From positions 1 through 38,474 of the IMG/VR virus record IMGVR_UViG_3300032116_013718: DNA of 38,474 nt. One strand, 5' to 3'. Shown in pieces: positions 1 to 34,379 of the stretch. The first letter of the stretch is position 1. Every line of letters begins with the position of its first letter. This DNA comes from a virus. The position numbers were made by a program, and so were the translations under genes. Under the pieces are notes generated by a model. That model was not told where the DNA came from. It did no database searches and saw only the letters and a list, made by a program, of their open reading frames with translations.

Positions 1-861
1 GAAACTGAAGAAGAAACTGAAGAAGAAATCGTTTACGAAATCGAAATGGATTCTGAAGACTTTTTCTCATCTGATGATGAAGAAGAAGAGGAGGAAGAAA
101 ATGAATTAGATATTGATTACATGGAAGAAGAAATGAATCCTGTTATGGAATCGTTTAAAGCAAAATTAGGTAAAGGTGCGGCTAAAACAGGTGACGCTAA
201 AAAAGCTTCTACTTTCAAAAAGACACAAGGTGGTTTTAATGAAAAGAAAAAAGCAGCTAACCCAACAGCTCACACAGGAAAACCTAAATTTGAATTTAAA
301 GAAGGAGAAGTGTTTGAAATGCCAAGTCCAAAAGGTGTTGAAAAATTCACTAAGGAAGAAGCTAAAGAAGCTGCTCGTACTTATGGATTCGGTTCTAAAA
401 AAGGACGTGGTTTAAGAAAAGCAATTACACCTAACAGAAATTTAACTTTCGAAAGCCGTGAAATCATGGAAGAACTTGAAATGTTAAGAGCTAAGAATGA
501 AGAATATAGAAAAGCATTAAATATGTTTAGAGATAAACTTAATGAAGTTGCTATATTTAATTCTAACCTTGCTTACGCTACAAGATTGTTTACAGAACAT
601 TCTACATCGAAACAAGAAAAAATTAACATTTTGAGAAGATTTGATTCTGCAGAATCTCTTAAAGAGTCTAAAGCCCTTTATAAAAATATCAAAGACGAAT
701 TAAATATTGATAATAATAAAAAATTCGTTAATGAGTCAATCGAGAGAGTTATTGAGAAAACCCCACAGTCAGGTTCAGCCGTTAATTTGATTGAATCTAA
801 GACTTATGAGAATCCTCAATTCTTGAGAATGAAAGACATTATGTCAAAAATAATAAAATAA
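1..861 (+). CDS. 22: Prohead core scaffolding protein, gp22-like (5' end missing)
   Basis: The reading frame is open from base 1 (Glu/Thr-rich codons), so the ATG at 46 is probably internal and the gene starts outside the window. Visible are an acidic Glu-rich start, a Lys/Ala-rich basic middle, and a coiled-coil helical second half in which a patch around KLNEVAIFNSNLAYATRLF matches what I know of T4-like gp22 core proteins. gp22 forms the internal scaffold of the prohead and is degraded by the gp21 protease during maturation. The major capsid gene follows after 28 bases, the T4 order 22-23. The assignment comes from composition, the conserved patch and synteny. The N-terminal length is unknown. 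Confidence 0.82.
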   Translation, partial: ETEEETEEEIVYEIEMDSEDFFSSDDEEEEEEENELDIDYMEEEMNPVMESFKAKLGKGAAKTGDAKKASTFKKTQGGFNEKKKAANPTAHTGKPKFEFKEGEVFEMPSPKGVEKFTKEEAKEAARTYGFGSKKGRGLRKAITPNRNLTFESREIMEELEMLRAKNEEYRKALNMFRDKLNEVAIFNSNLAYATRLFTEHSTSKQEKINILRRFDSAESLKESKALYKNIKDELNIDNNKKFVNESIERVIEKTPQSGSAVNLIESKTYENPQFLRMKDIMSKIIK

Positions 862-889: not shown

Positions 890-2770
890 ATGGGAGCATT
901 ATTAGAAAGTGGATTAGTTGGTAACATCGGTCTTAAGCACTTGAAAGTTATCAAAGAAGACACAGTAAACAAATGGGACAGATTAGGGTTCCTTGAAGGT
1001 CTTAAAGGCCACCTAAAAGAAAATGTAGCTCAGTTGTATGAAAACCAAGCATCACATTTGATTAACGAAGCATCTTCTACGGCAGATTCAGGTTCATTCG
1101 AGACTGTGGTATTCCCTATCATCAGACGTGTGTTCTCTAAGTTATTGTCTAACGAAATCGTTTCAGTACAAGCTATGAATTTACCAATCGGTAAATTGTT
1201 CTACTTCGTACCACAAATTCAAGGTTATTCTGGTGGTTCAGCTATTAACGGATTAAACGTAACTTCTGGTGACCACTATGCACCTGTAGGTTCTCCTGGA
1301 AACTATCCTGGTGACCCTAACGCAGGTTATGCATCTGGTACTGGAAGTGCTAACAACCCAACTTACGCTAAAAACCTTTATGATTTATTCTATGAAGGAA
1401 CTGAGCCAGGTTTAGACCCAGCAGGTTTATTCGATTACTCTAAAGGTAGATTTGTTACTTTAACGTCTGCAACTCCAACAGTTGCTTGGTCTAATGGAGC
1501 TTTAATCGCTTCTGCATATACTACTAACAGTAGTGCTGAATACAGAAAGATTATTGTTGCATTATCAGGATTTTCAACTGCAGGTATTGGTAAGTTAATT
1601 GGACCTGATGGACAAGAGCAAGATACTGAATCTTTCTTATCTAATTTAGTTCTTTATACTGACAACGCAACAGTTGCAAGTAACTTAAATACTAACACAT
1701 TTACACCACTATTATATCGTGTTGTAACTCAGAAGTATGGTCAAGCAATATATGGTCCTCAGTACACTTCAACACAAGCTGCTTTTGGTACTTCAAGTAC
1801 AGGTGGTAATGGAGGGTATTATGATAATGTTTGTAACCAAACAGGTTTCATATATTTAGAAATTGACGCTCAAGTTCCAGCATGTATTGCATGTGGACAA
1901 TCAACTCCTGATGGTTATTCTGGAGCTACTTTAACTCCATCTACAACTGCTTGGAGTGGAGCTTCTGCTAATACAAACATCAAAGCTGCTTGGAGACGTT
2001 ACGAAGAGTTAGAATTTGAAGATAAAATTGGTGAAGTTTCTTTTGACCTTGAGTCAGTAACTGTTTCTGTTACAGAAAGAAAATTAAGAGCACAATGGTC
2101 TCCTGAAATGGCACAAGACGTTGCAGCGTTCCACAACATCGATGCTGAAGCTGAATTAACAGCTTTATTATCTGAGCAAGTGGCAGCTGAAATTGACCGT
2201 GAAATTTTACGTGACTTACGTAAAGGTGCGGCATGGACATTACGTTGGGATTACAACGGATGGAAGCGTCTGAACAACCAATCAACTCCTTACACTCAAA
2301 AGGACTGGAATCAAACATTGATTACTGCAATCAACCAAATTTCAGCTCAAATCCACAAGTCTACTTTAAGAGGTGGAGCAAACTGGATTGTTGTATCTTC
2401 TGAAATCAGTGCTATCTTTGATGACTTGGAATACTTCCACGTATCAAACGCGGCTCCTGAGCAGGACCAATTCAACATGGGTATTGAGAGAGTTGGTACA
2501 TTAAGTGGTCGTTACCAAGTATACCGTGACCCATACTTCCCAGCTAACACTGTGTTGATTGGTCATAAAGGTACTTCTTTATTGGATACTGGTTACATCT
2601 ACGCTCCATACGTACCATTACAATTAACTCCAACAATGTATAACCCATTCAACTTTACTCCAATCAAGGGTATTATGACACGTTACGCTAAGAAGATGGT
2701 TAATAACCGTTTCTATGGACGTATCATCGTTGATGGTGTTCGTACATTCGATTTGAATGAATTAAGATAA
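890..2770 (+). CDS. 23: Major capsid protein, gp23-like
   Basis: 626 residues; forms the hexameric shell of the T4-type head. The N-terminal region ends in I58-N59-E60 before ASST, which fits the gp21 protease consensus (L/I-x-E), and T4 gp23 is cut at a similar place (Glu65). PIIRRVFSKLLSNEIVSVQAM (about 75-95) and the 385-450 region (EVSFDLESVTV, LRAQWSPEMAQD, IDAEAELT) match the conserved gp23 core, and the end (NRFYGRIIVDG) is typical. T4 gp23 has about 521 residues; the extra length lies in a Gly/Ser/Thr/Asn-rich segment at about 110-370, probably an enlarged surface insertion. ATG at 890 follows an A-rich stretch with no Shine-Dalgarno site. A terminator follows the gene. Confidence 0.95.
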   Translation: MGALLESGLVGNIGLKHLKVIKEDTVNKWDRLGFLEGLKGHLKENVAQLYENQASHLINEASSTADSGSFETVVFPIIRRVFSKLLSNEIVSVQAMNLPIGKLFYFVPQIQGYSGGSAINGLNVTSGDHYAPVGSPGNYPGDPNAGYASGTGSANNPTYAKNLYDLFYEGTEPGLDPAGLFDYSKGRFVTLTSATPTVAWSNGALIASAYTTNSSAEYRKIIVALSGFSTAGIGKLIGPDGQEQDTESFLSNLVLYTDNATVASNLNTNTFTPLLYRVVTQKYGQAIYGPQYTSTQAAFGTSSTGGNGGYYDNVCNQTGFIYLEIDAQVPACIACGQSTPDGYSGATLTPSTTAWSGASANTNIKAAWRRYEELEFEDKIGEVSFDLESVTVSVTERKLRAQWSPEMAQDVAAFHNIDAEAELTALLSEQVAAEIDREILRDLRKGAAWTLRWDYNGWKRLNNQSTPYTQKDWNQTLITAINQISAQIHKSTLRGGANWIVVSSEISAIFDDLEYFHVSNAAPEQDQFNMGIERVGTLSGRYQVYRDPYFPANTVLIGHKGTSLLDTGYIYAPYVPLQLTPTMYNPFNFTPIKGIMTRYAKKMVNNRFYGRIIVDGVRTFDLNELR

Positions 2771-3073: not shown

Positions 3074-3082
3074 AGTGTTAGA

Positions 3083-3102
3083 TATTTATGTAAATATAAA
3101 CA
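3083..3102. promoter_or_regulatory. Possible divergent T4-late-like promoter elements
   Basis: The 41-base gap between divergent genes holds CATAAATA on the minus strand (3090-3083) and TATAAACA on the plus strand (3095-3102). Each is one base off the T4 late element TATAAATA and sits 9-12 bases before an ATG, which would give nearly leaderless transcripts. In DNA this A+T-rich such octamers arise by chance, so this is weak evidence. Confidence 0.3.
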
Positions 3103-3114
3103 ATTTTTTTGGGT

Positions 3115-4143
3115 ATGAAAAGTAATATAATTTTAGAAATTCTTAAAAAACTAACTGAATATGAGGAACATTTAAATGAGGCTGCGTCAACTTCAACCGT
3201 TCATGGTACATACAAGCCACCAATCAGACCTGGAATTAGAAAATGGTTTAAAGAAAATTTAGCACCATTTATTGAACCTGTATCTGATTATGTTGATGCT
3301 GAAATAAATTACGATTCATTAGATGGTGATATTAAAAAATCTAAAAAAGAAATTTCTAAAAGAGAAAAATCAGCAAAAAATATTCGAGATAAAGATTATA
3401 AACAAGACGCACCTGATGAAGGTGATGACGAATATGCGTATGCCCCATTTAAACTTTTAAAACCTAATTACAAAGTTGATAGTGTAAACGAGGCCACAAG
3501 TACTGGAGGTGTTGGTAGTTTTAGAGCCCCTTTAAGACCTGGTTTAAAACTATGGGATAAAAATACTTTAGAACCTTTCATTAAGCCTTTAAGTGGTTAT
3601 GATAATGCTGAATTATATGTTGATTCTTTAGATGGTAACATTGATACAAAAGGTGTTAAAAGAAAAGAAGAAATGGCTAAAAAAATATCAAAGTATGATA
3701 AAAAACATCCCATTCAAAATGATGATGATGGTAGTAATTTAAATGATGATACTTACACAAAAAGTAAAATTAAGAATAACATATCTAAACCATTTGTTAA
3801 TGAAGATTTAGGTGTTTGGTTTGGTACAAAGAAAAAACCAAAAGGTAGTAAACAACCTAAAGGTCCATGGGTTAATATTTGTCGTAAAAAAGATGGTAAA
3901 CATCCACCTTGTGGTAGACCTGAGGGTGATGAAAAAGGATATCCTAAATGTAGGGCGGTAGGTGTTGCAGCTAAAATGTCTGATTCTCAAAAACAAGCTG
4001 CTTGTCAACAAAAAAGAAAGGCCGAGAAAAAAGATACTCAAACAGGTAAAGGTCAAAAACCTGTTATGACTTCATACAAACCTAAAAAGAAAAAGACCAA
4101 CGAATCGGTCTTAATATCTTTAATTAGAAAAGCTTTAGATTAA
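3115..4143 (+). CDS. Repeat-containing basic protein with Cys-rich tail, probable virion protein
   Basis: 342 residues from the ATG at 3115; a TTG six bases upstream is possible but less likely. Parts in order: an N-terminal helix ending in L20-N21-E22, a gp21-type cleavage motif followed by AAST; two homologous units at 21-72 and 125-176 (NEA-ST, RPG, PFI-P, DSLDG conserved); then a very basic tail with Cys256, 266, 279 and 297 around PPCGRPEGDEKGYPKC. That last pattern resembles a small Cys/Lys/Gly domain I have seen in T4-like marine phages and large DNA viruses, function unknown. The C-terminus (NESVLISLIRKALD) echoes the N-terminal helices of neighbouring small proteins. Inference: a capsid-internal, DNA-binding or structural protein processed during maturation. 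Confidence 0.8.
   Translation: MKSNIILEILKKLTEYEEHLNEAASTSTVHGTYKPPIRPGIRKWFKENLAPFIEPVSDYVDAEINYDSLDGDIKKSKKEISKREKSAKNIRDKDYKQDAPDEGDDEYAYAPFKLLKPNYKVDSVNEATSTGGVGSFRAPLRPGLKLWDKNTLEPFIKPLSGYDNAELYVDSLDGNIDTKGVKRKEEMAKKISKYDKKHPIQNDDDGSNLNDDTYTKSKIKNNISKPFVNEDLGVWFGTKKKPKGSKQPKGPWVNICRKKDGKHPPCGRPEGDEKGYPKCRAVGVAAKMSDSQKQAACQQKRKAEKKDTQTGKGQKPVMTSYKPKKKKTNESVLISLIRKALD
3175..3642 (+). repeat. Two internal protein-repeat units
   Basis: Units at 3175-3330 and 3487-3642 encode two 52-residue copies, 104 residues apart, each starting NEA(A/T)ST and ending DSLDG(D/N)I. Shared features are R-P-G, a Trp, PFI-P and Y-x2-AE. The DNA copies have diverged, so this is an old duplication and not a recent slippage event. 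Confidence 0.85.
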
Positions 4144-4385
4144 TAAATACTTTTACTAACTCTAATACCTGGTTTAAGAGGTTCATAAGTTCTTTTAGGT
4201 CTTGAGTATTGTCCTGTACTAAATTCAGAATTTAATGCTTCTAAAGCCCCTCTATATCCACCTGTTTCATCTGATAATAATCTATCAATAACATCTTGAA
4301 TTAAACTTCTATCAAGTCTTCCGTATTCTGGTTCTTCTGACATTTCTCTTAATGCTTTTTTAATTTGTGTATCTAACTTTGACAT
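4140..4385 (-). CDS. Small protein with capsid-targeting-like N-terminus
   Basis: 81 residues, no recognised family. The N-terminus (LDTQIKKALREMSEE) closely parallels that of the gene at 4859 (LDNLIKKVLKEQNE), and both have L12-x-E14, a possible gp21-type cleavage point. The C-terminus (YEPLKPGIRVSKS) resembles the KPPIRPGIRKW and APLRPGLKLW segments of the repeat protein at 3115, so the two may share a partner or a processing route. Its stop overlaps the stop of that convergent gene by 4 bases, with no terminator between them. It is probably cotranscribed with the gene at 4396, 10 bases upstream. Confidence 0.75.
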   Translation of the reverse strand: MSKLDTQIKKALREMSEEPEYGRLDRSLIQDVIDRLLSDETGGYRGALEALNSEFSTGQYSRPKRTYEPLKPGIRVSKSIY

Positions 4386-4395
4386 TATTTTAATA

Positions 4396-4800
4396 TTAAC
4401 AATTTATTTTATTATAAATATTATCAAGTGAGTGATTAATTTGAGTTTCTAATTCTTTTTCAATCTCCATTGCTCTAAATTCCATTTCTTTACGGAATGT
4501 ACCAACCAATTTATCCCATTGAGTTTTACTCAATTTAATGAAATAACTGTATGTATGATTAGTTACTGTAACTTGTCCACCATCCATAGTAACAAAAATA
4601 CCTAATTTATCATTACGGATATATTTTTTATCAGATATTGGGGCAATTATGAGTTCAGAATCTTCTGAATGAATGAGTTTTCTACATATGGTGGAACATT
4701 TCCTCACGTTAGACATATAAATGTCAAAATCGGTACTCCCTCGGTCTAATCTACGTAGATATAGACGGTATTTAATCCACAGTTTTTTAATAATAGTCAT
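4396..4800 (-). CDS. Hypothetical basic protein with its own host-type promoter
   Basis: 134 residues, basic at the N-terminus (KKLWIKYRLYLRRLDRG), then a probable beta-rich middle (LGIFVTMDGGQVTVTNHTYSYFIKLS) and a helical C-terminus (FRKEMEFRAMEIEKELET). I do not recognise it. Unlike most neighbours it does not overlap the gene before it; a 58-base gap contains a promoter of Bacteroidetes type. That suggests expression by host RNA polymerase, possibly early, although it sits among structural genes. No signal peptide or membrane segment is visible. Confidence 0.75.
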   Translation of the reverse strand: MTIIKKLWIKYRLYLRRLDRGSTDFDIYMSNVRKCSTICRKLIHSEDSELIIAPISDKKYIRNDKLGIFVTMDGGQVTVTNHTYSYFIKLSKTQWDKLVGTFRKEMEFRAMEIEKELETQINHSLDNIYNKINC

Positions 4801-4819
4801 GTCATTTATGATTTGACTA

Positions 4820-4850
4820 CAAATATACTATGATTTTTCAATAATTCAAA
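4820..4850 (-). promoter_or_regulatory. Bacteroidetes-type (host sigma) promoter
   Basis: On the minus strand, TTTG (4850-4847), 19 bases, then TATATTTG (4827-4820) fits the known Bacteroidetes consensus TTTG-N19-21-TAnnTTTG exactly. The ATG of the downstream gene is at 4800, giving a leader of roughly 10-15 bases. It lies in one of the few real intergenic gaps in the block. Confidence 0.65.
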
Positions 4851-4858
4851 TTTTTTGA

Positions 4859-5314
4859 TTAACAATAAGCTCCTGAACAACGTTTTTTCCCGTCTAAACC
4901 AGGTTTTGTACCTTTACATACCTGTACCGCATAACCATTAGCATATGCTGAAGGATAAACATCAAATTTTGCTTTAGCTGCGGCTTTACCACGAGCACAT
5001 AATTTAGTACCTGCCTTTTTACGACCCTCCATCATAAAATCTTGTTGTGGTTCAACCGCATCGTCAGAACTAAATTTATCACCTTTAATTTCATTCATCA
5101 TAAAATCAAATACTTGGTCTAAATTATTTTTAGCCTCAGCTATATGGTCTTGAGCCCAATCGTGACCATTGTCTAAAATATTTTCAACATCATCTTTAGG
5201 GATAGATAAAAGTATTTCACATTGACGATGCATTTGTTCTAAATTGCTAAAGAACATATATCTTTCATTTTGTTCTTTTAATACTTTTTTAATTAAATTG
5301 TCTAAGTTTTTCAT
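4859..5314 (-). CDS. Small Cys/Lys-rich protein with capsid-targeting-like N-terminus
   Basis: 151 residues. The N-terminus LDNLIKKVLKE ends in L12-K13-E14, a gp21-type cleavage motif. The middle is acidic and helical. The C-terminal third (about 97-151) is basic with four cysteines (106, 133, 146, 151) and the segment FDVYPSAYANGYAVQVCKG, a motif I associate with small proteins of unknown function in T4-like marine phages; the cysteines could bind a metal. Only 1 base separates it from the upstream gene's stop. Inference: a virion-internal accessory protein. No enzymatic motif is seen. Confidence 0.78.
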   Translation of the reverse strand: MKNLDNLIKKVLKEQNERYMFFSNLEQMHRQCEILLSIPKDDVENILDNGHDWAQDHIAEAKNNLDQVFDFMMNEIKGDKFSSDDAVEPQQDFMMEGRKKAGTKLCARGKAAAKAKFDVYPSAYANGYAVQVCKGTKPGLDGKKRCSGAYC

Positions 5315-5315
5315 A

Positions 5316-5834
5316 TTAAGCTATCATATCATCTTCTTTTAGGTCATTACAGACAACATCTAAAAACACTTCAATATCGTGTTCTAAACCTTCATAATCT
5401 TCAAATACATTTGTTCCCTCAGTTGTATTTTCAAACATACAAGTTTGAAAATTACCTTCAGGGTCACAATAAATTTCACCATAATAGTCACTATCATCAA
5501 CTGTTAGATATCCTGTATGTATTTTTTCATCTTCAGTATCTTCAGTTGACTCATATCTAAATTTAAACGATGGCATTCCTGGAAATTCAAAAGACCAAAA
5601 ACCACCCGCCTTTGTTATTGAATCTTCTTTAGATGATGGTTCGTCTTCTATTGAAATACCTTTAGTAAATTTTTCAAGAGTCTCTCTTTCTTTAGGTGTG
5701 ATTGATTCCATACCTGATTGACTAATTTTATCTAAAATCGCGTCAATTTTATCTTCACCTGGTGTTGAAGCTTCAGATAAAACAAATTTCAATAACTTAA
5801 TGTATTCGTTTTCTTTTAATACTACTTTTTTCAT
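5316..5834 (-). CDS. Acidic hypothetical protein with gp21-type site and DUF6576-like helix motif
   Basis: 172 residues. The N-terminal helix YIKLLKFVLSEASTP contains L19-S20-E21 before Ala, a good T4-type prohead-protease site. At 28-55, DAILDKISQSGMESITPKERETLEKF resembles a short helical motif (ILDKI-x-G-x-SLT-x-EE) often found at the C-terminus of Bacteroidetes proteins such as rhomboids; its role is unknown. The rest is very acidic (FENTTEGTNVFEDYEGLEHDIEVF). The gene overlaps the structural gene upstream by 4 bases (ATGA), so the two are translationally coupled. No function is assigned. Confidence 0.78.
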   Translation of the reverse strand: MKKVVLKENEYIKLLKFVLSEASTPGEDKIDAILDKISQSGMESITPKERETLEKFTKGISIEDEPSSKEDSITKAGGFWSFEFPGMPSFKFRYESTEDTEDEKIHTGYLTVDDSDYYGEIYCDPEGNFQTCMFENTTEGTNVFEDYEGLEHDIEVFLDVVCNDLKEDDMIA

Positions 5835-11529: not shown

Positions 11530-12229
11530 TCTTGAATTTTTTGATTGAAGCTCTAATTTCTTTAGTTGACATATTTGTCATTTCACGAATTGACAATAAA
11601 ATCACATTTTTATTAAATTTATTATTATCAGTTGCTGGAAATATTGTTTCGTAATTGTCTAAAATATCGATAAGTGCTAAACCTAATTTTAATTCATTAT
11701 CATTTAATTCATCTTCCTCTATTGTTGTTTTAATATAATCTTTTAATATAGGAATTACATTATATTCTTGAACAGGTTCAAGTTCTAAATAATAAATCAT
11801 TTCAGGTCGGTTTTCTAAATCGCTTGAAATGTCTTCATATGAAATTTTTCTATTTGTTTCTTTTTGGTCTTTTAATATTTGACCCATAAGATAATTCTTG
11901 CAAATAGTTCCAAAATATGAATAAGCTTTCTTTTCTTTTGAAGGACTAAATTTGTCAATTTTTGTCATCAAAAATGAATGTGTGTCAGTATGAATTTCAG
12001 TAAAATTCATATCTTTTCTATACAATTTATACCTTCTTATTATGGAAGATATCATCTTATCGAGAGGAAATCTTAAAAATTCATTATAAATTTTATTTTT
12101 TTCCTCAAAAGTAGATGCGGTTAGAAATAACCTAACCGCATTTTCCTCTCTTATATCGAAATAATTTTCTGTGGTCTGTTTTTTCTTCTTAGTTAAAGAA
12201 TCTTGGACAGACGATGCACTTAAAATCAT
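11492..12229 (-). CDS. 55: Late-transcription sigma factor, gp55-like
   Basis: 245 residues. The ATG at 12229 overlaps the preceding TGA by one base (TGATG); a TTG one codon upstream is less likely. Residues about 75-120 (FTEIHTDTHSFLMTKIDKF, KKAYSYFGTICKNYLMGQIL) match sigma region 2 of the T4 gp55 family, which recognises late promoters (TATAAATA) with the sliding clamp. The C-terminus (NVILLSIREMTNMSTKEIRASIKKFKKIY) looks like a helix-turn-helix of region 4 type, absent from T4 gp55 (185 residues) but seen in related phages. It directs host RNA polymerase to phage late genes. gp33 and the clamp are not in the window. Confidence 0.85.
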   Translation of the reverse strand: MILSASSVQDSLTKKKKQTTENYFDIREENAVRLFLTASTFEEKNKIYNEFLRFPLDKMISSIIRRYKLYRKDMNFTEIHTDTHSFLMTKIDKFSPSKEKKAYSYFGTICKNYLMGQILKDQKETNRKISYEDISSDLENRPEMIYYLELEPVQEYNVIPILKDYIKTTIEEDELNDNELKLGLALIDILDNYETIFPATDNNKFNKNVILLSIREMTNMSTKEIRASIKKFKKIYSSLIDVKEE

Positions 12230-13035
12230 CAAGCGTTTTCAGGTGTATATTTTATGTTTCTGTCTTGACTGAAAAAATATTCTTTTTTTGCAGTATTGAC
12301 CCAAAACTTCACTTCATTTTCTGTTAAGACATTTTCACCATTTTTATAATCCCAAAAAATTGAACCTTCTCTTAAATTCATGTGTTTATACCCAATTCTT
12401 GGAATTGTCATGAATTTAACTGAATTATAAGTCATTCTTAATAAGAACTCGTAAACAAATGTTAATTTAAACCCTGATTTAAATCCTCCAAAATCCTCAA
12501 CAATTTGTTTTTTAAATACCATTCCTGAAGTTTGGAAATTTTGGTAATTTAATAATGTTTCATTTGTTAATGTTCCCATTTCTTGAGAGAAATTAGCCGC
12601 AAATGTTGCTTCATTTGTGAATCCTGCAAATACAGATTTATTATCAACATCAACAACGATTGGCATAAATACGTCTATATCGGTATAGATTTCTGAATAT
12701 TTTTTAACATTTTTAAACCAAATTTTAGAAAACTCATCATCAAATTCTAAAATACTATTCCATTCAGTTTTTGAGTTTTTAATACCTGTGTTAACTTGTT
12801 CACAGAAATTAGGTTCCCCATTAAATTCAATTTTATTAACTTTTAAATTACCAAAATCAAAATCATTTAAATAACTAATTAAACTTTCTTCTTTAGAGTG
12901 AACAATTATAAGTTCGGTTGGTAGTATATCTTGTATTGTTAATGATTCAATACTCTTTTTGAAAAACTCGTCGAAATCTCTAACTACTGAGCTTTTTAAT
13001 GGTAGTATGACACTTAATTCAAATTCTTTTTTCAT
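12229..13035 (-). CDS. Glycosyltransferase, GT-A (family 2-like)
   Basis: 268 residues from the ATG at 13035; a TTG 12 bases upstream inside the preceding stop region is less likely. FELSVILPLKS starts a Rossmann-like GT-A fold, SIESLTIQDILPTELIIVHS matches the family-2 second helix and strand, and ILEFDDEF takes the place of the DxD metal-binding motif. TSGMVFKKQIVEDFGGF is the usual acceptor-side loop. It would transfer a sugar from a nucleotide sugar; donor and acceptor are unknown. The gene is 1 base from the GT-B gene upstream and overlaps the sigma gene by one base, so the sugar block begins directly after the sigma factor in this operon. Confidence 0.8.
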   Translation of the reverse strand: MKKEFELSVILPLKSSVVRDFDEFFKKSIESLTIQDILPTELIIVHSKEESLISYLNDFDFGNLKVNKIEFNGEPNFCEQVNTGIKNSKTEWNSILEFDDEFSKIWFKNVKKYSEIYTDIDVFMPIVVDVDNKSVFAGFTNEATFAANFSQEMGTLTNETLLNYQNFQTSGMVFKKQIVEDFGGFKSGFKLTFVYEFLLRMTYNSVKFMTIPRIGYKHMNLREGSIFWDYKNGENVLTENEVKFWVNTAKKEYFFSQDRNIKYTPENA

Positions 13036-13036
13036 A

Positions 13037-14095
13037 TTATTGTTCAATTAATTGTAGTTTATTTATTTCTTCTTGAAATCCCTGAGTTCTTTTAGTAAAA
13101 TAATTTGAGAATAATTCAATAACATTCTTTTCAAATTTTTCAAAATCCGAAAACTTAGATGATGTTTCTTGACCATTATCGTATAATTTTTCAGAGATAT
13201 TATCTTCTAACCAATTTTGTATAAATTCAGCAATAAAATCAACTAATTTAATTTCTTCTTGAATCCAAATACCATTCTCTTCATTTAACCATGATGGAAT
13301 CATTTTAGGTACAACTCCTAAAACAGGGACATTAGATTTCATTGATTCTAATGGGAACGTTCCAAAAGAACTTGTTTTATCAATCCAAACTGATAACATA
13401 CAATCTTTTAAAGTATTTGCAAATTCCTCTTCAGAAATTCCTCTCATATCTCTAAATGTTACCCATCTAAATTGAGGGTATTTTTGATAAAAAGTTTTAA
13501 TTAGATTAATAGCCTCACGTTGTTCTCTTGATGAAACCGCAATTATTGGTTTTGCTGGAAATTTAGATTTTGTAAATACAGGTGAAACAACAGGTTCTAA
13601 AATATCAATCGAGAAATTTCTCATAATCTCTGAAATATATTTTTTCTGATTTTCAGAAGTCGTGATACATTTTGTAAAACCAAATTGACTCCATACTTGA
13701 CCTGGTTGTAAAGTTTCGAAAATATGGTCATACGCTTGTGATAAAACAATCTTAGTACAAGGCAAATTAGTTAATTGAGACATAATATACCCAAAAATTT
13801 CAGGGATTATAATAAAATCTTCAGGTGAAATTGCCAAATTTTGACCCTCAACAGACTGATGAGGAAGATTTGAATATTTTTCACCCAACCACCCCGAAAC
13901 TCCAAAATAATCAGGTTTTTCATGTAACATAATTGGATTGTATCCGTTTTCTTTTAACGTTAATGCCATTTGGTAGATGTATCTTACCGAGGCATTAGCA
14001 TTTCCTTTAGTGTCTTGAACAAAAAAATAAATCTTTGATTTTTTATTTTTAAGATTTTCAATAGAACCTTCAATTTTTAAAATTCTTTCTTCCAT
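13037..14095 (-). CDS. Glycosyltransferase, GT-B fold
   Basis: 352 residues. The N-terminal Rossmann half starts KIYFFVQDTKGNANASVRYIY and the C-terminal half starts near PIIAVSSREQREAINLIK. The donor-binding segment SSFGTFPLESMKSNVPVLG (242-260, with E250) matches the E-x7-E type loop of GT4-like enzymes. Short N-terminal helix (EERILKIEGSIENLKNKK) precedes the fold. No transmembrane segment, so probably cytosolic. Substrate unknown. It sits between another glycosyltransferase and a small unknown gene, 3 bases from the latter. Confidence 0.78.
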   Translation of the reverse strand: MEERILKIEGSIENLKNKKSKIYFFVQDTKGNANASVRYIYQMALTLKENGYNPIMLHEKPDYFGVSGWLGEKYSNLPHQSVEGQNLAISPEDFIIIPEIFGYIMSQLTNLPCTKIVLSQAYDHIFETLQPGQVWSQFGFTKCITTSENQKKYISEIMRNFSIDILEPVVSPVFTKSKFPAKPIIAVSSREQREAINLIKTFYQKYPQFRWVTFRDMRGISEEEFANTLKDCMLSVWIDKTSSFGTFPLESMKSNVPVLGVVPKMIPSWLNEENGIWIQEEIKLVDFIAEFIQNWLEDNISEKLYDNGQETSSKFSDFEKFEKNVIELFSNYFTKRTQGFQEEINKLQLIEQ

Positions 14096-14098
14096 ATT

Positions 14099-14359
14099 TT
14101 AATATTTGTTTATTATTTTATTATTTAATAAAGTGTTAAACGCTAATTTAAACGGTATTGATAAATTTGATTTATTACCAAGTTTTTCATCAGTTTCTTC
14201 ACTTTCGGATAGAACAACATCTATCATAATTTTTATTAGTTCATATTTTACAACACTTATATGTTGTTCACTATCTCCGCTAGTACTCGCGTCATAGGTT
14301 ACACTGTCATTAATTAAGTCTAAATCAATATAATAGTGTTCGTTAAGAATTGGTAGCAT
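14099..14359 (-). CDS. Small hypothetical protein
   Basis: 86 residues, acidic middle (SESEETDEKLG) with a helical segment before it (VVKYELIKIMIDVVL) and another after it (FKLAFNTLLNNKII). No family recognised. It overlaps the HAD-like gene upstream by 17 bases and lies 3 bases before the GT-B gene, consistent with a cotranscribed phage gene. No catalytic motif seen. Confidence 0.65.
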   Translation of the reverse strand: MLPILNEHYYIDLDLINDSVTYDASTSGDSEQHISVVKYELIKIMIDVVLSESEETDEKLGNKSNLSIPFKLAFNTLLNNKIINKY

Positions 14360-14948
14360 CTAATTTATTTTTTAAAATTAACTTTAGTTCTTCGATAGAA
14401 TTAATTGATTTATCACAATTAATTTTTTCGTTATAAATTGTATTAAATTTAATACAATTATTATAATTAATAAGAATATCAGGGTTAGAAGTAACTATTA
14501 AATCAAAATCCCCTAAAACTTTAGTTTTATTAGAATCATTATAGAATAAAATTGACTCTAATAAACATCCAAATTTTGATAGAAAAAATAAGGTCGCGGG
14601 TTTTGTTTTACCAATCTCATCTGAGATTATAACAATTTCATGGTCATTTCTAAAATCTAAATAAAAATCATTGAGGTAATTAAAACTTAACAACTCAGTT
14701 GATGGTGAATGACCAAAAATTTCCATTGGGAATTCTTCATATAGAAAACTAAAAAACTCTTCTTTTGATTGGAATGAGAAATGATTCATTAAATCTAAAG
14801 AATCAATTGGTTCACTAACTTTATATTCAAACGGGTTTTCAGACTCGGAATTTTCTGAGTTATTTTCTATTAAAAATTTTTCATAAGTAGTTTTAAATTT
14901 ACCTATAGTATCTCTTAAAACTCCGTTAACATCAATTCCTATCTTCAT
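14343..14948 (-). CDS. HAD-superfamily-like protein (altered motif I)
   Basis: 201 residues. The N-terminus MKIGIDVNGVLRDT is the HAD motif I position, with D6 as nucleophile, but the second Asp of DxD is Asn8. EIVIISDEIGKTKPATLFFLSKFG carries motif II (Ser) and a Lys suited to motif III, and GDFDLIVTSNPD fits motif IV. HAD enzymes are mostly phosphatases; phage relatives include 5'-nucleotidases and polynucleotide phosphatases. Asn8 would weaken phosphatase general acid/base catalysis, so it may be another HAD type or inactive. It overlaps phoH by 17 bases and is probably translated with it. Confidence 0.68.
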   Translation of the reverse strand: MKIGIDVNGVLRDTIGKFKTTYEKFLIENNSENSESENPFEYKVSEPIDSLDLMNHFSFQSKEEFFSFLYEEFPMEIFGHSPSTELLSFNYLNDFYLDFRNDHEIVIISDEIGKTKPATLFFLSKFGCLLESILFYNDSNKTKVLGDFDLIVTSNPDILINYNNCIKFNTIYNEKINCDKSINSIEELKLILKNKLDATNS

Positions 14949-15672
14949 ATCTTTTTAAGATTTCAGTAATTAATGGATTTCTAACAACATCTTCATCCCC
15001 AAATTCATGAACACCAATTTCAGAAATATTTTTAAATTTTTCAATAGCATCCCACAAACCTGAATGTTTTTTATCTTTATATCTGTCAGTTTGTTCTAAA
15101 TCTCCTGATATGAAAAATTTACTATCAGTACCAATACGAGTTAATAATAACTTCATTTGTTTTGGTGTTGCATTTTGAGCTTCCTCAAATATTAAAATTG
15201 AATTATCAATATTCATCCCTCTCATATATGCCAACGCGAATACTTCAATAACTTCCATTTGTTTTAATTTTTCTCTCGCTTCTTTACCTATAATTTTATT
15301 TAATAGATAATAAGATGGAAAAATATATGGGTCCAGTTTTTCTTCAACATTACCGGGTAGTGAACCAAGTTTTTCTTCAGCTTCAACAGCAGGTCTAACT
15401 ATGATAATCTTTTCATAAGGTGAAGTATGGTCAGCAATTAAGTCAACTGCCGCTTTCATCGCAATAAAACTTTTACCGACTCCTGCGGGACCTGAACAAA
15501 TAGTAATTTGATTTTTCTTTAATTTATCGTAATACTCTCTTTGACTTTGAGTTAAGAACTTATCTTTACTCTTTTTAATCATACCACTAATTTGGTCTTT
15601 TTTAGACATTTTTGGTTTAGCTTCAGTAGGAATATACTGACCGTCTTTGCTAATTGTTTTTTTTCTTGTCAT
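14932..15672 (-). CDS. phoH: PhoH-like ATPase
   Basis: 246 residues. Walker A is GPAGVGKS (61-68), Walker B is SILIFEEAQN (158-167) with E163/E164, and TPKQMKLLLTRIG follows as in the PhoH family. A basic N-terminus (KKTISKDG, KMSKKDQISGM) precedes the ATPase. PhoH proteins are common in T4-like phages of marine and other bacteria; their role is not settled, and RNA-related helicase functions have been suggested. Its start overlaps the stop of gmd by one base (TAATG), tying it to the sugar operon transcriptionally. Confidence 0.92.
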   Translation of the reverse strand: MTRKKTISKDGQYIPTEAKPKMSKKDQISGMIKKSKDKFLTQSQREYYDKLKKNQITICSGPAGVGKSFIAMKAAVDLIADHTSPYEKIIIVRPAVEAEEKLGSLPGNVEEKLDPYIFPSYYLLNKIIGKEAREKLKQMEVIEVFALAYMRGMNIDNSILIFEEAQNATPKQMKLLLTRIGTDSKFFISGDLEQTDRYKDKKHSGLWDAIEKFKNISEIGVHEFGDEDVVRNPLITEILKRYEDRN

Positions 15673-16652
15673 TATTTAATTGTATAATAATCCATCCAGT
15701 AGTCAATCATTTCATCTAGCATTGTCTCAAACGTATAATCATGAGACCACCCAGTTAATTTAGTTAGTTTGGAAGAATCACCTTTTAAATCGTGTAATTC
15801 TTCAGGTCTTAAGAACTTTTCATCTTGTGTAACGTATTCTTTATAATCCATCCCTAAAGATGAAAATACATAATCACAAAGTTCTCTAACTGAATGGGAT
15901 ATCCCTGTTGAACAAACAAAATCATCAGGATTTTCTAATTGTAGAATTTCCCACATAGCTTTAACATAATCTTTAGCGTGACCCCAATCGCGAGTTGCGT
16001 CAAGATTACCTAATTTTAGTTCATTAGATAGTCCTAATTTAATCTTAACGGCTTCTTTACATACTTTATTGGTTACAAAGTTTGTTCCTCTTCTTGGTGA
16101 TTCGTGATTAAATAAAATACCATTAGAAACAAACATCCCATATGAGTTTCTATAGTTACGACAAATATTGTAACTAAAAACTTTTGCACATCCGTATGGT
16201 GATACAGGATTAAGAGGAGTTGTTTCTCTTTGATACCCATCAGTATCAATTGAGTTACCAAACATTTCGGAAGACGACGCTTGATAAATTTTAATATCAG
16301 ATTTAATAAGTTTTACCGCCTCTAATAAATTTAAAGTACCTAATCCTGTGACATTTGCAGTATAAATTGGTTGGTCAAATGAAATTCTAACATGTGATTG
16401 TGCGGCCAAATTATAAACTTCGTCAGGCATTACTTTTTGAATTATATTAATTAGTGACGATAAATCAGTCATATCGGCATAATGTAATATAACTTTACCA
16501 AAAACATTATCCAATCTTGATGTTTGATTTTCGGATACTGAATTACGTTTAAGTGTTCCATGTACCTCATAACCTTTCTCTATTAATAATTCAGATAAAT
16601 ATGAACCGTCTTGACCATTTATACCTGTTATTAATGCAATTTTATTTTTCAT
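15672..16652 (-). CDS. gmd: GDP-mannose 4,6-dehydratase
   Basis: 326 residues, full length for the family. Converts GDP-D-mannose to GDP-4-keto-6-deoxy-D-mannose with NADP. The NADP-binding motif is ALITGINGQDGSYL (6-19). Catalytic residues are S127/S128 region plus E129 (ASSSEMFG), Y153 and K157 (PYGCAK), and NHESPRRGTNFVT (182-194) is the Gmd signature. Downstream on the same strand follow a ColD-like and an Fcl-like gene, so the product is probably used for GDP-colitose and possibly GDP-fucose. The 19-base gap to the gene upstream is one of the few spaces in the operon. Confidence 0.95.
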   Translation of the reverse strand: MKNKIALITGINGQDGSYLSELLIEKGYEVHGTLKRNSVSENQTSRLDNVFGKVILHYADMTDLSSLINIIQKVMPDEVYNLAAQSHVRISFDQPIYTANVTGLGTLNLLEAVKLIKSDIKIYQASSSEMFGNSIDTDGYQRETTPLNPVSPYGCAKVFSYNICRNYRNSYGMFVSNGILFNHESPRRGTNFVTNKVCKEAVKIKLGLSNELKLGNLDATRDWGHAKDYVKAMWEILQLENPDDFVCSTGISHSVRELCDYVFSSLGMDYKEYVTQDEKFLRPEELHDLKGDSSKLTKLTGWSHDYTFETMLDEMIDYWMDYYTIK

Positions 16653-16671
16653 ATTAAGTTAATTGTTTTTA

Positions 16672-17826
16672 TTATTGATTTATAATTTCACATATAAAAT
16701 TTATTTCATCATAAGTTAAATCTTGATGGTTAGGTATGTAAAAACCATAGTTATTTACTAACTCACAATTTGGTAAAGACTGGTAACCATATTTCTCAAA
16801 CCACATTGGTTTTTTAGACATGTCACCAGCAATTAAGGGTCTAACTTCAATATTGTTTTCTTGTAATTTTTTAACAATTTCATTTTTATTTTCATTAACA
16901 ATGGGATATGAAAAACTTGATATAAAATTCATATCGAAATTAGAAATATTTAATTTATTATTTTTAATACTGCTTAGGTATTGTTTAAAATTATTATTTC
17001 TTTTTTTAGAGTAATCATCTAATTTGTCAATTGCTCTTAATCCAATAAAAGCTTGTAAATCAGTTGCTCTTAAATTAAATCCTGGAACGTAAAAATTATA
17101 TAATGATGAAAAATCATCAACTGAATATTTTAATCTTAATTCTTTTTGTTTCCATTCAGGTAAGTCTCTATCCCATCCATGACTTCTCATCATTAATAAT
17201 AGGTGATAAAAATCTTCATCATTTGTATTGATAAACCCACCTTCAATGGTACTTAAATGATGTCCAAAATACATTGAGAAAAAAGACGCTAATCCAAATG
17301 ACCCTAAAAATTTATCATTATATTTTGACCCCATACTTTCACAAACATCTTCAAATAAAACAACATCATATTTTTTACATAGTTCTAAAATTCTATCCAT
17401 GTCAGGAACAAGACCAAGTGGTGAAACTAATATAAATGAGGATGGAGAATGCTCAATAAATAATTCCTCTAAATGTTTTAAATCACAAGATAAGTCATGT
17501 AAATTACAATCACACATAATAGGTTCCATACCTAATAGAATTGGGGAACTTACATCTGTTGCCCAACTTAAAGATGGTACTATAATTTTTTTATTTTTAA
17601 TTTTTTTTGAATATAAAAACGCGGCTAAACTTAATAAAATTGATGATGAACCTGAGTTTACATAAACAGAATATTTTGTACCGATTTTATCGGCCCATTT
17701 TTTTTCTAAATCGATTGTTAAATTTCCTTTAGTTAATCTTGGAATATCATCCTGAGATAACCATTCAATTAAAGACTGGATATCATCTTTATTTATTGTG
17801 TCATTTACTAAATTAATTTTTTTCAT
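16672..17826 (-). CDS. colD: ColD-like GDP-4-keto-6-deoxy-D-mannose 3-dehydratase
   Basis: 384 residues, DegT/DnrJ/EryC1/StrS fold. KYSVYVNSGSSSILLSLAA (51-69) and VVLFEDVCESMGSKY (155-169) bind PLP phosphate and ring. The usual PLP-lysine position in S-F-H-x-x-K is occupied by His: SMYFGHHLSTIEGGF, H189. That substitution and the following RSHGWDRDLPEW are hallmarks of ColD (His188 in the E. coli enzyme), a PLP- and glutamate-dependent 3-dehydratase that removes C3 oxygen to give GDP-4-keto-3,6-dideoxymannose. Perosamine synthases keep the Lys. The position between gmd and an Fcl/ColC homologue fits a GDP-colitose route. It overlaps the next gene by 4 bases (ATGA). Confidence 0.87.
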   Translation of the reverse strand: MKKINLVNDTINKDDIQSLIEWLSQDDIPRLTKGNLTIDLEKKWADKIGTKYSVYVNSGSSSILLSLAAFLYSKKIKNKKIIVPSLSWATDVSSPILLGMEPIMCDCNLHDLSCDLKHLEELFIEHSPSSFILVSPLGLVPDMDRILELCKKYDVVLFEDVCESMGSKYNDKFLGSFGLASFFSMYFGHHLSTIEGGFINTNDEDFYHLLLMMRSHGWDRDLPEWKQKELRLKYSVDDFSSLYNFYVPGFNLRATDLQAFIGLRAIDKLDDYSKKRNNNFKQYLSSIKNNKLNISNFDMNFISSFSYPIVNENKNEIVKKLQENNIEVRPLIAGDMSKKPMWFEKYGYQSLPNCELVNNYGFYIPNHQDLTYDEINFICEIINQ

Positions 17827-18755
17827 TTTTTAATAGTATTATAATTTTTTATAAACCAATCAATAGTTTCATTAATACCTTCCTCAATAGGTTTAAATTT
17901 ATAGTTGTTTACATGTGATATCGCCGGTTTTCTATGTTGACCTTTTGGTTTTGATAGGTCAAAAACAATATCACCATCATTAAATTCGAATTTTTTCTTT
18001 ATTAAATTTGCGATTTCTAAAACAGATATTTCGGTTTCATTAATTAACATACAATGCTCTTCAGATTTCCAATTTTCTAATGACCATAGTATCAAATCTG
18101 CCAAGTCATCGGAATGAACAAATTGTCGTAATTGTTTACCATCACCCCATATGACAAATTTTTCATTATTTATTTTAGACAAATATGCTCTGTGAATCAT
18201 ACCAGCAATTAAATGACTTGTTTCTAAATTAAAGTTGTCATGTCGACCATATAAATTCGTAGGTATTACCGAAAACCAATTTTTGTTTAAAACATTTCTA
18301 AAAATTTTAGTTTCATATCCTGAAAGTCTTTTAGCGTAAGAATAACCATAATTAGTATTATGTGGTTTACCTCTATCAATTTGCTCAGGTGTTAAAGGAA
18401 ATTCTATATTATCAGATGGGAATATACATGTTGATAATACGTTTACAAAGTTTTCGACTTTAAATTCGGCCGCGACTTTTAAAATATTATTATTTATATG
18501 GTAATTAATTTTAAAAAATTCTTCATTACTATCCATATTTGCTTTAATACCACCTACTTTGGCTGCACAGTGAATAATCGTATTAACACCGTCATTTTCT
18601 ATCTTATTTTTTATGTAGTTAAATGTTTCATCGTAATTTGTTAAATCCGCATCTTTTCTTGTGTGATAAACATGACCTTCACCTAATTTTTCTTTAAGTG
18701 ATGTCCCTAGTAATCCATTTGACCCTGTTACTAAAATTTTTTTATTATTTTCCAT
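17823..18755 (-). CDS. fcl: GDP-L-colitose (ColC-like) or GDP-L-fucose synthase
   Basis: 310 residues, short-chain dehydrogenase fold of the GMER/Fcl type. ILVTGSNGLLGTSL binds NADPH (7-20). AAKVGGIKAN (64-73) is the family signature. Catalytic residues S108, Y138 and K142 and the epimerase pair C110 and H181 (PTNLYGRHDNF then SHLI) are all present. Fcl epimerises C3 and C5 and reduces C4 of GDP-4-keto-6-deoxymannose; ColC is a close homologue that acts on the 3-deoxy compound from ColD. Sequence alone does not separate them; the neighbouring ColD favours ColC. The two upstream steps are encoded just downstream in the same operon. Confidence 0.88.
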   Translation of the reverse strand: MENNKKILVTGSNGLLGTSLKEKLGEGHVYHTRKDADLTNYDETFNYIKNKIENDGVNTIIHCAAKVGGIKANMDSNEEFFKINYHINNNILKVAAEFKVENFVNVLSTCIFPSDNIEFPLTPEQIDRGKPHNTNYGYSYAKRLSGYETKIFRNVLNKNWFSVIPTNLYGRHDNFNLETSHLIAGMIHRAYLSKINNEKFVIWGDGKQLRQFVHSDDLADLILWSLENWKSEEHCMLINETEISVLEIANLIKKKFEFNDGDIVFDLSKPKGQHRKPAISHVNNYKFKPIEEGINETIDWFIKNYNTIKK

Positions 18756-18775
18756 AGAATAAAATATATTGAATT

Positions 18776-19537
18776 TTATGATATAAGTGTATGATAATTA
18801 TTAATCCATTGTTTAGGTATAGGTGTTTTGTTTAGTTTACATAAAGATTCGTTACAAATAACTTTATTTTTATTAAAAAATCCTGCGGATATACTAAAAG
18901 TACTTGAACCAACGACTAATATATCTGAATGAACCATGTAATTAAAATGTTCTATAAATTTTTCACCTGAACTTACAGTATGGTATGTTATGTTTGGGAT
19001 TGTTATTGATAAATTAGGGTCCCCCCATGAAAATATATGAAAATGTGGATTTTCAATTACATCATTTAATTTAATAATTAAATTGTCATATATTGACGAA
19101 TCAATCCATCTGTAAGATTTATCTTCTTCTTTAATATCATCACCTCTACGGATATGTATAGCGATGTTAGTATATTGACTATTATATATTTTTGGATATT
19201 CATAGTGGTATGATGAACTTAATTTATTTAATATATTATCAGTGAAGTAATTTTCAGGCCCTTCATCAAATATTACATCATGTAAAAAAGGTTTAATTTC
19301 ACAATTTTCACCATTATAAAAATCGAAACCCATGTTGGAAATAATTTGACTTATTACTTCATTTAATAATGTGATTTCTTCGTTCTGAAAAGAATCTTTA
19401 TCTACTAATTTAATATTTTCAATTTTAGAGTGTAAATATTTTATACCCTTACTTTCACAATAAGAAATTCCTGATATAATACTGAATAATTGTGAACCAA
19501 AACCATCATTTCCTCTTTTAATTGTTAAACAACTCAT
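18776..19537 (-). CDS. Fucosyltransferase-like protein (GT11/GT23 type) A
   Basis: 253 residues. DGFGSQLF (11-18) takes the place of the GGLGNQLF motif, and HIRRGDD (128-134) is the GDP-sugar-binding HxRRGD motif of alpha-1,2/1,6-fucosyltransferases and protein O-fucosyltransferases. DILVVGSSTFSISAGFF near 210-226 corresponds to the NSTFSWW region of GT11. Donor is probably GDP-fucose or GDP-colitose. It shares 4 overlapping bases with the GT11 gene upstream and lies 20 bases before the Fcl-like gene. Divergent, so the family label is approximate. Confidence 0.75.
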   Translation of the reverse strand: MSCLTIKRGNDGFGSQLFSIISGISYCESKGIKYLHSKIENIKLVDKDSFQNEEITLLNEVISQIISNMGFDFYNGENCEIKPFLHDVIFDEGPENYFTDNILNKLSSSYHYEYPKIYNSQYTNIAIHIRRGDDIKEEDKSYRWIDSSIYDNLIIKLNDVIENPHFHIFSWGDPNLSITIPNITYHTVSSGEKFIEHFNYMVHSDILVVGSSTFSISAGFFNKNKVICNESLCKLNKTPIPKQWINNYHTLIS

Positions 19538-20316
19538 ACCTTAATCCATTTATCACAATATAAATCTATTGTATTTAAATGTGTATTATTAACCCCAAAC
19601 CATTTGGTCGGTATTATTACTTTTTTATTGTTATTACGATTTAGCCACGCTCCCCACCAGCTAAATGTTGAGTTTGCAATAATGTTATTTTTACATAATG
19701 ACATTAAATATAAATCAATATAATCGTAATTTCCTGAGATAAAAATTTTGTTTTTTATAAAACTTAAATTTTCTTCACACCATTTAATATCATCTGAAAA
19801 TATTAAATAATATTTATTTTCACCAATTATCTCCACTGATTTTTTATAATAATCAATAGTTTGTAATGTATGGTAATTTTGTAAATTAACAAAATCACCT
19901 CTTCTAACATGTAATGAACAATTATCTAATTTTAAAATGTCTGAATATTTTTCAGTTATAATTTTTTGACTTTCATCGTCAATACTAAAGAGTTCTAAAA
20001 TTTCTTCTCGGTATTCCGTAAAATATTTTTCACTTTGGAAATACCCAACTAATTTTATATCTGACTTGAAATCAGGTATTTCAACATAGTTAAAACTTGG
20101 TTCATGATATACCTTATAATTTTGTTCTAATTTTAAAAATTTTATTTTACGTAAAATATTTTTAATATAAAATTGATAGGAATTGTGAGGTGATATAGTA
20201 TCGGATATATCACAAATAAATTTATTATTATGTTTAATAGAATATGCATAAGATGATGAAATCTGAAATAAATAATTACCAAGACCCCCCATTAATTTAT
20301 TTGTAACTAAAAACAC
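19534..20316 (-). CDS. GT11 alpha-1,2-fucosyltransferase-like enzyme
   Basis: 260 residues. GGLGNYLFQI (10-19), HVRRGDF (136-142) and NSTFSWWGAWL (215-225) are the three GT11 signatures. GT11 enzymes move L-fucose from GDP-fucose to O2 of galactose, and known colitosyltransferases belong to the same family, so GDP-colitose is a fitting donor here. The start is a GTG at 20316: the first ATG (M9) would cut into the strand leading to GGLGN. It lies 4 bases after the upstream gene's stop. Cytosolic, no membrane segment seen. Confidence 0.9.
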   Translation of the reverse strand: MFLVTNKLMGGLGNYLFQISSSYAYSIKHNNKFICDISDTISPHNSYQFYIKNILRKIKFLKLEQNYKVYHEPSFNYVEIPDFKSDIKLVGYFQSEKYFTEYREEILELFSIDDESQKIITEKYSDILKLDNCSLHVRRGDFVNLQNYHTLQTIDYYKKSVEIIGENKYYLIFSDDIKWCEENLSFIKNKIFISGNYDYIDLYLMSLCKNNIIANSTFSWWGAWLNRNNNKKVIIPTKWFGVNNTHLNTIDLYCDKWIKV

Positions 20317-20320
20317 GTTT

Positions 20321-21941: not shown

Positions 21942-21943
21942 TA

Positions 21944-22678: not shown

Positions 22679-22695
22679 TATTATTTGTTTTTTTT

Positions 22696-24024: not shown

Positions 24025-24031
24025 AATAAAT

Positions 24032-32390: not shown

Positions 32391-32775
32391 TTTCTAATTC
32401 AAATTTTGTACAAACTTTTAATCCTACCATTCCTTTATCATCAGGATTATAATTTGGTCTGATTACATCAAATTTATCTCTTGGGTCAACTGAAAAGTTA
32501 CCAATTCTATCGACCCTAAATAATCTCCATCCCGGTAATGGTTGGTCTCCAATCTGAGCAGTGTGAGAAGCTCCTTCTCTTTCCCAAGCTCTTATTACTC
32601 TATTTCCTCTTTTGGATGTTCCGTAACAAAAAGGTTCAATGACACGAAGTCCTTTACCTCCATTATCATTACCATTGTAGTAAATTGTAACCAAATTTCT
32701 ATTTTTAATAGCATTGGTTATTTCATCGCTACTTGCTTCAAGGATAATTTGTTTTATTACGTTGTAAAGCTTCAT
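32383..32775 (-). CDS. WYL-domain-like protein with capsid-targeting N-terminus
   Basis: 130 residues. MKLYNVIKQIILEASS strongly resembles the capsid-targeting sequence of T4 internal proteins (IPIII begins MKTYQEFIAEA): I11-L12-E13 before Ala is a gp21-type cleavage site. The rest (about 25-110) has LVTIYYNG, RVIEPFCYGTSKRGNRVIRAW and PGWRLFRVDRIGNF, the pattern of the WYL domain, an SH3-like ligand-binding fold. No helix-turn-helix precedes it, so it is not a normal WYL regulator. Inference: a virion-packaged WYL-like protein injected with the DNA. It is coupled by ATGA overlap to the gene upstream. Confidence 0.65.
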   Translation of the reverse strand: MKLYNVIKQIILEASSDEITNAIKNRNLVTIYYNGNDNGGKGLRVIEPFCYGTSKRGNRVIRAWEREGASHTAQIGDQPLPGWRLFRVDRIGNFSVDPRDKFDVIRPNYNPDDKGMVGLKVCTKFELENE

Positions 32776-34359: not shown

Positions 34360-34367
34360 TATAAATA
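34360..34367 (+). promoter_or_regulatory. T4-type late promoter for the adhesin gene
   Basis: TATAAATA matches the T4 late -10 element exactly and lies 26 bases before the ATG at 34394, in the 47-base divergent gap. A gp55-like sigma factor is encoded in the window. The octamer is not rare in DNA this A+T-rich, so position is the main support. Confidence 0.55.
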
Positions 34368-34379
34368 CTTGGATTTAAC

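Follow-up and report, generated by a model that had tools for sequence, protein, structure and literature searches.

Genes with shared N-terminal leaders

The stretch of DNA analysed here (IMG/VR record IMGVR_UViG_3300032116_013718, positions 1 to 38,474; hereafter the window) holds 38.5 kb of the genome of a T4-like virus, apparently a jumbo phage of freshwater Bacteroidota. Five of its genes, named here by their first coordinate (3115, 4140, 4859, 5316, and 32383), encode proteins whose first residues form an amphipathic, Lys-rich segment closed by [LI]xE, and these N-terminal leaders, or tags, are the subject of this analysis. The leaders and the corresponding site in the capsid protein are as follows (lengths in amino acids, aa; arrows mark the candidate cleavage site; bit scores refer to the tag model described below).

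3115..4143, + strand: gene 3115 (family CL4), 342 aa, with a duplicated module and a Lys/Cys-rich module (phrog_23735)
3115..3180, + strand: leader of 3115, residues 1-22, ending LNE↓A; MKSNIILEILKKLTEYEEHLNE↓AAST, Glu at E22
4140..4385, - strand: tagged 81-aa protein (CL51)
4344..4385, - strand: leader of 4140, residues 1-14, ending LRE↓M; MSKLDTQIKKALRE↓MSEE, Glu at E14; 13.7 bits
4859..5314, - strand: tagged 151-aa protein (CL9) with a C-terminal basic Cys module (phrog_27331)
5273..5314, - strand: leader of 4859, residues 1-14, ending LKE↓Q; MKNLDNLIKKVLKE↓QNER, Glu at E14
5316..5834, - strand: tagged 172-aa protein (CL34), with DUF6576 at residues 28-58 and a beta-sheet domain at about 79-168
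5772..5834, - strand: leader of 5316, residues 1-21, ending LSE↓A; MKKVVLKENEYIKLLKFVLSE↓ASTP, Glu at E21; 18.6 bits
32383..32775, - strand: tagged 130-aa WYL-domain protein (CL18), present in 25 related loci
32737..32775, - strand: leader of 32383, residues 1-13, ending ILE↓A; MKLYNVIKQIILE↓ASSD, Glu at E13; 21.9 bits
890..1069, + strand: propeptide of the major capsid protein, residues 1-60, ending LINE↓A

A preliminary description of this DNA had pointed out the shared segment, and the five N-termini read as it described. Leaders of about 10 aa or more that end in [LI]xE are also what characterizes proteins with a T4-type capsid-targeting sequence (CTS), and the likeness it drew to T4 is borne out by the internal protein IPIII (MKTYQEFIAE↓A) and by gp24 (MAKINELLRE↓S). 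Ala follows the Glu in three of the five, and only in 3115, 5316, and 32383. The capsid protein shares the motif, as had been noted, in the context ENQASHLINE↓ASST with E60 in the P1 position, and at least 75 of 80 relatives have LINE↓A. The five proteins are indeed unrelated in their mature parts (all-against-all blastp, best E = 0.15), and a fold search with the predicted structure of 5316 returned no match at E < 0.001. The label of small proteins, however, does not suit 3115, which has 342 aa and further internal sites at E126 and E230.

Genome-wide occurrence of the tag

The 4859, 5316, and 32383 families served to build a 13-residue position model of the tag, which was applied with a threshold of at least 12 bits. 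In the window, 4 of 43 genes reach this score at the N-terminus against 0.0 expected in shuffles, a scan that is partly circular because the model was trained on three of the five window families. The independent test of the pattern is provided by two long near relatives, G003 (240 kb) and G001 (294 kb), which were used for the genome-wide tests. There were 21 N-terminal matches in the 270 genes of G003 and 21 in the 388 genes of G001, where shuffled proteins are expected to give 0.1–0.4, and internal matches numbered just 3–4 in each genome. Since three matches per genome come from training families, 18 of the 21 in G003, and likewise in G001, belong to families outside the training set. Thus, the genome-wide motif search that the preliminary description had suggested places its set of five, which is real, within a tagged set of about 20 or more genes per genome.

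The same model found 4 matches in the phage immuto against 0.1 expected, 0 among 214 proteins of cyanophage S-SM1, and 0 among 54 in 44 kb of T4. An unguided MAFFT alignment of 44 tagged proteins, training families included, contains a single invariant column, the Glu that closes the tag; because the selection of proteins favours this Glu, the alignment serves as an illustration and not as a test. A tblastn search of cultured phages with a 22-residue tag gave no match, the query being too short, and we found no earlier report of such tags in Bacteroidota phages in the open literature. An internal tag-like helix in the gene preceding the protease (CL6; 25 bits in one genome) was set aside since it is not conserved across its family.

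These counts bear on whether the likeness of the N-termini could be a product of chance or composition, with AT-rich gene starts yielding Lys, Ile, Leu, and Glu, or of a constraint on translation starts linked to ribosomal protein bS21. The genome is AT-rich and relatives encode bS21 (see also PMC9723584), yet this explanation is very improbable. Shuffles of the first 35 residues yield 0.2–0.5 matches against 21, the control genome of the crAss-like Cellulophaga phage phi14:2, also a Bacteroidota phage, yields 0 among 113, and a constraint on the start cannot fix a Glu that lies anywhere from residue 7 to residue 46.

The terminal glutamate

Leaders of the 3115 family range from 10 to 46 aa and have a median pairwise identity of 11%. 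All 22 distinct leaders end in [LIV]xE immediately before the conserved mature start, which is mostly A[TS], while [LIV]xE occurs at most other offsets in 0–1 of the 22. In the 4859 family, E14 is the sole invariant leader residue in 21 homologues, despite indels of 8 residues. The [LIV]xE ending is the only feature that is retained when leaders are swapped or vary in length. A non-circular test of the terminal Glu is obtained with a helix-only model from which the last three positions were dropped: [LIVM]xE then follows in 35 of 46 N-terminal matches, as opposed to 1 of 15 matches elsewhere (p = 2e-6). In the AlphaFold model of 5316, which is of modest confidence, the tag forms a helix of its own, predicted at low confidence, that ends with the Glu. 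The final Glu behaves like a cleavage site, and the strongest evidence for this comes from families whose leaders have been replaced.

Candidate internal sites

The 3115 and 4859 proteins look like polyproteins, as their internal domain junctions also follow xxE. Two such sites in 3115 are listed here.

3490..3492, + strand: E126 codon, internal candidate cleavage site VNE↓A, before the second module copy of 3115
3802..3804, + strand: E230 codon, internal candidate site VNE↓D, before the DL[AG]VWFG module of 3115

At E126, the surrounding E↓A[ST]ST matches that of the first site of the protein. Across the 3115 family, the residues before the DL[AG]VWFG module read xxE in all 32 distinct contexts, 28 of which show [LIV]xE, whether the module opens a short protein or lies within a long one. 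In homologues of 4859, [MLV]xE↓G (E96-G97 in 4859 itself) always stands before the basic Cys module, after a linker of highly variable length. Judging from these junctions, the probable cleavage positions are E22, E126, and E230 in 3115 and E14 and E96 in 4859.

Tag-like helices were also observed away from N-termini. The C-terminus of 3115 carries one (NESVLISLIRKALD), and C-termini in its family often bear the helix of the N-terminal tag, for example TVRLTESDLVRLVKKIINEQIG (window 3115-4143, L012:5165-5905, and L056:8484-9176); 10 of 40 distinct C-termini score at least 8 bits. In addition, the gene at 31815-32390 (- strand), which follows the tagged WYL gene, contains an internal tag-like helix, SAEDIKKIVRETVEEVLSE, that is kept in 15 of 26 relatives.

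Head genes of the window and its relatives

Two head genes open the window.

46..861, + strand: prohead scaffold (gp22-like, CL1), of which the contig end leaves only the C-terminal part; C-terminus ENPQFLRMKDIMSKIIK
890..2770, + strand: major capsid protein, gp23 family, by match to gp23

The truncated gene at 46..861 has no Pfam match, and its assignment rests on its place, which in relatives is between the protease and the capsid gene. Gene order in the relatives is terminase, T4 portal (PF07230), bS21 (PF01165, on the opposite strand), gp21-type protease (PF03420), scaffold, and capsid. The protease gene falls outside the window fragment; in G003 it lies two genes before the scaffold gene. 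A gp21-family prohead protease and T4-type head genes are thus both represented, with gp23 in the window and the protease (Peptidase_S77, PF03420, E = 5.9e-25) and portal (Portal_T4, E = 5.2e-76) in the relative L025.

The S21 gene was located inside the head cluster, on the opposite strand, at L025:6733-6918 (-), at L073:6458-6649 (-), and near 65.8-66.0 kb in G003. Passages of PMC9723584 describe the same layout of head genes, with bS21 on the opposite strand, in bS21-encoding jumbo phages of freshwater Bacteroidota. Because S21 is encoded in this way within the head cluster of its relatives, the window can be linked to these published phages, and it very likely belongs to their group. Among annotated cultured phages, the nearest to the window by capsid protein are Flavobacterium phages of the immuto group.

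Positions 12229-31726 of the window hold a long run of glycosyltransferase, sugar-epimerase, and aminotransferase genes flanked by tail-type genes and the WYL gene, and this run has a different content in G003. In another relative (L038:12535-16397), genes whose N-termini resemble signal peptides, such as MKKQILFLTLMMFVSIFAIGQ, lie between the capsid gene and the tagged ones.

An element upstream of tagged genes

An oriented element of the TATTTAT type, NTATTTATN, occurs within 60 nucleotides (nt), and mostly 5-28 nt, before the start codons of tagged genes. Counting only genes with free upstream space, it precedes 21 of 24 tagged genes and 72 of 269 others (p = 5e-9), and it is also found upstream of the terminase and portal genes. 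Three copies in the window are given below.

3082..3090, + strand: promoter-like ATATTTATG, upstream of gene 3115
4413..4421, - strand: promoter-like ATATTTATA, upstream of gene 4140
34361..34369, - strand: promoter-like GTATTTATA, 14 nt upstream of the gene run 34346-31815, to which the tagged WYL gene belongs

The element may serve transcription, as a late promoter, or translation. As it stands very near the start codon, it could be a promoter whose mRNA is almost leaderless, or a ribosome-binding element with a link to bS21.

Tag flavours and the scaffold

Tags come in several flavours that have their ending in common. One flavour is LTESxLxxLIKKVLxE and another comprises leaders of the type SExEKxRILxLHExATKxxYLxE, while immuto has leaders of the types NFDLKKFLVENKLTxNSKxLxE and SEQFRRMQKLAGIITE. 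Two immuto tags of the SEQFRRMQKLAGIITE type match the scaffold C-terminus of the same phage, SEQVSRWQKLAGII; they score 48 and 41 by BLOSUM, and the next best segment of the immuto proteome scores 26. This match points to a docking mode, and suggests that tags may dock by imitating the scaffold's own binding end.

In G003 and G001, the C-terminus of the scaffold showed no match to the tags above background. The idea that the tag helix was copied from the scaffold C-terminus of the window's own group was therefore rejected, and mimicry holds only in immuto; because the comparison within the window group found nothing, we infer scaffold imitation for the window rather than observe it.

Cargo and its location

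Most mature parts of the 44 tagged proteins match no Pfam or PHROG family, and the same searches detected no similarity to the T4 internal proteins IPI, IPII, IPIII, or Alt. Recognised cargo consists of a phage lysozyme, peptidoglycan-binding domains, an HExxH protein, and the WYL protein of the window, and there is a further protein with long hydrophobic helices. With respect to defence-protein families, the WYL domain was the only useful match among the tagged proteins. It is reasonable to say that the recognised cargo would fit injected proteins, although this is not proof.

Most tagged genes are located in one accessory island, at 2.5-37 kb in G003 and at 0-34 and 284-294 kb in G001, and this island has the look of a reservoir of rapidly changing head cargo. 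The distance of this island from the head genes, 30–70 kb, is also what would be expected if the tag were a docking helix for a target other than the head, such as a host protein, a membrane, or a replication compartment, and if its likeness to the capsid site were convergent. We regard this as unlikely, since it leaves unexplained that the P1 Glu is kept where the helix is absent (leaders of 7-12 aa, for example MTNKINE↓GTG), that the same site recurs at internal domain junctions, and that tag and scaffold match in immuto.

Interpretation

It is likely that the N-terminal segments are cleavable prohead-loading leaders that work like the capsid-targeting sequences of T4. This is supported by the retained [LIV]xE, the capsid site, the gp21-family protease that relatives encode next to the capsid gene, the upstream element, and a tagged cyanophage protein reported in virions. 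Tagged proteins would be late products, probably expressed along with the head genes, and the short amphipathic tag would dock on the prohead scaffold or inner shell during head assembly. A gp21-type protease would then cut after the Glu of [LIV]xE, as in the capsid protein, and the mature proteins would remain in the head with the DNA, to be delivered on infection. In 3115 and 4859, further xxE junctions would probably be cut to release small basic modules. The docking partner, the actual cleavage, the packaging, and the injection are all parts of this scheme that we infer.

Several observations weigh against it. The case for this phage group rests on sequence, and the sole tagged example outside T4 that has been detected in virions is one protein of a distant T4-like phage. 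The window group's scaffold C-terminus does not resemble the tags, and the upstream element could be a translation signal. Depletion of LxE, tried as a sign of exposure to the protease, was not seen in the mature parts of tagged proteins, where 43 occurrences were observed against 31.5 expected; it was rejected as an indicator given this ratio of 1.37, which compares with 1.13 in untagged proteins. Finally, most island tags have Glu, Ser, Gln, or Asn after the terminal Glu and not the Ala of the capsid site, and the AlphaFold model of 4859, at low confidence, runs the tag helix continuously into the next helix.

The last two points raise the possibility of a mixed set, in which one class of leaders (Ala, Ser, or Gly after Glu; 3115, 5316, 32383, and the capsid protein) is cut in the prohead and a second (Glu, Gln, Asn, or Met; 4859, 4140, and most island genes) only attaches its protein to the scaffold or shell and stays on. 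Island tags, being unlike the capsid site after the Glu, may dock without being cut, and cleavage of 4859 is uncertain because its model joins the tag to the body of the protein. The following residue does differ sharply between families: Ala is found in 26 of 32 cases in the 3115 family and also in the 5316 and 32383 families, as opposed to Gln or Glu in 21 of 27 in the 4859 family. On the other hand, the Glu of the second class is as invariant as that of the first, both classes carry the same helix, and Ser and further residues are tolerated after the Glu in gp24 and other T4 substrates. We consider a mixed set possible, with the balance leaning against it. As such, the claim of the preliminary description that these proteins are packaged in the prohead and processed by gp21 gains comparative evidence for a cleavable prohead leader, while cleavage is uncertain, and least sure, for second-class tags with Met, Gln, or Glu after the Glu, including those of 4140 and 4859. 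That description had also missed how large the set is, that 3115 and 4859 carry polyprotein sites, and that a relative shows scaffold mimicry.

If prohead-loading leaders are indeed at work, a simple sequence rule would list the head-carried proteins of abundant, uncultured lake phages that are delivered at the onset of infection. Lysozyme-like, peptidoglycan-binding, protease-like, and WYL proteins, which would otherwise pass for hypothetical ones, would be among the injected cargo, and dozens of orphan genes would become testable injected effectors with exact predicted mature N-termini. The leaders would also be new packaging tags, and tags may arise by copying the docking peptide of the scaffold. 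We advance more tentatively, at somewhat short of an even chance, a general address system of Bacteroidota jumbo T4-like phages, in which several tag flavours can replace one another and at least one was copied from the scaffold C-terminus; each head would be loaded with 20-40 different proteins and polyproteins, and one protease would remove the address. Under such a system, head cargo would be a large, fast-changing, and sequence-predictable part of the genome.

Comparison with known systems

Passages of PMC5694885, PMC7411985, and PMC10052503 describe many head-internal, protease-processed, and ejected proteins in the giant phages SPN3US and phiKZ. As far as those passages go, these phages belong to the phiKZ-type lineage, whereas the head genes of the window group are T4-like (gp20, gp21, and gp23). 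The processing motif of phiKZ-type phages is SxE and not LxE. For the bS21-encoding phages themselves, the relevant passages of PMC9723584 contain nothing on N-terminal tags or internal proteins except a suggestion that bS21 might be packaged.

Closer parallels are found among T4-like cyanophages. The cytidyltransferase T4-GC190 of S-SM1 starts with MKKFSAFLNE↓A and has been reported in purified virions (PMC3037559), and family T4-GC119 combines modules related to those of 3115 and 4859 in a single protein, the junctions again bearing Glu. The tags of both are of the short T4 type, unlike the long helix of the window.

The closest system is that of T4, in which gp21 processes IPI-III, Alt, gp23, and gp24 and the CTS of IPII and IPIII is, as here, a short leader ending in [LI]xE. 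The leaders of IPIII, IPI, and gp24 are established gp21 substrates (PMC9958956) and follow the same grammar as the window tags. In T4, too, the leader is cut by a Peptidase_S77 prohead protease, the capsid propeptide is cut at the same motif, and the cargo proteins are mutually unrelated. The phages described here differ in their longer Lys-rich helix (13-22 aa), in having about 20 or more tagged genes per genome instead of a handful, in their several tag flavours, in the internal sites of multidomain proteins, and in cargo without detected homology to the T4 internal proteins. The best reading is that a T4-type loading and cleavage signal is used on a large scale in Bacteroidota jumbo phages, as a variant of the known T4 trick.

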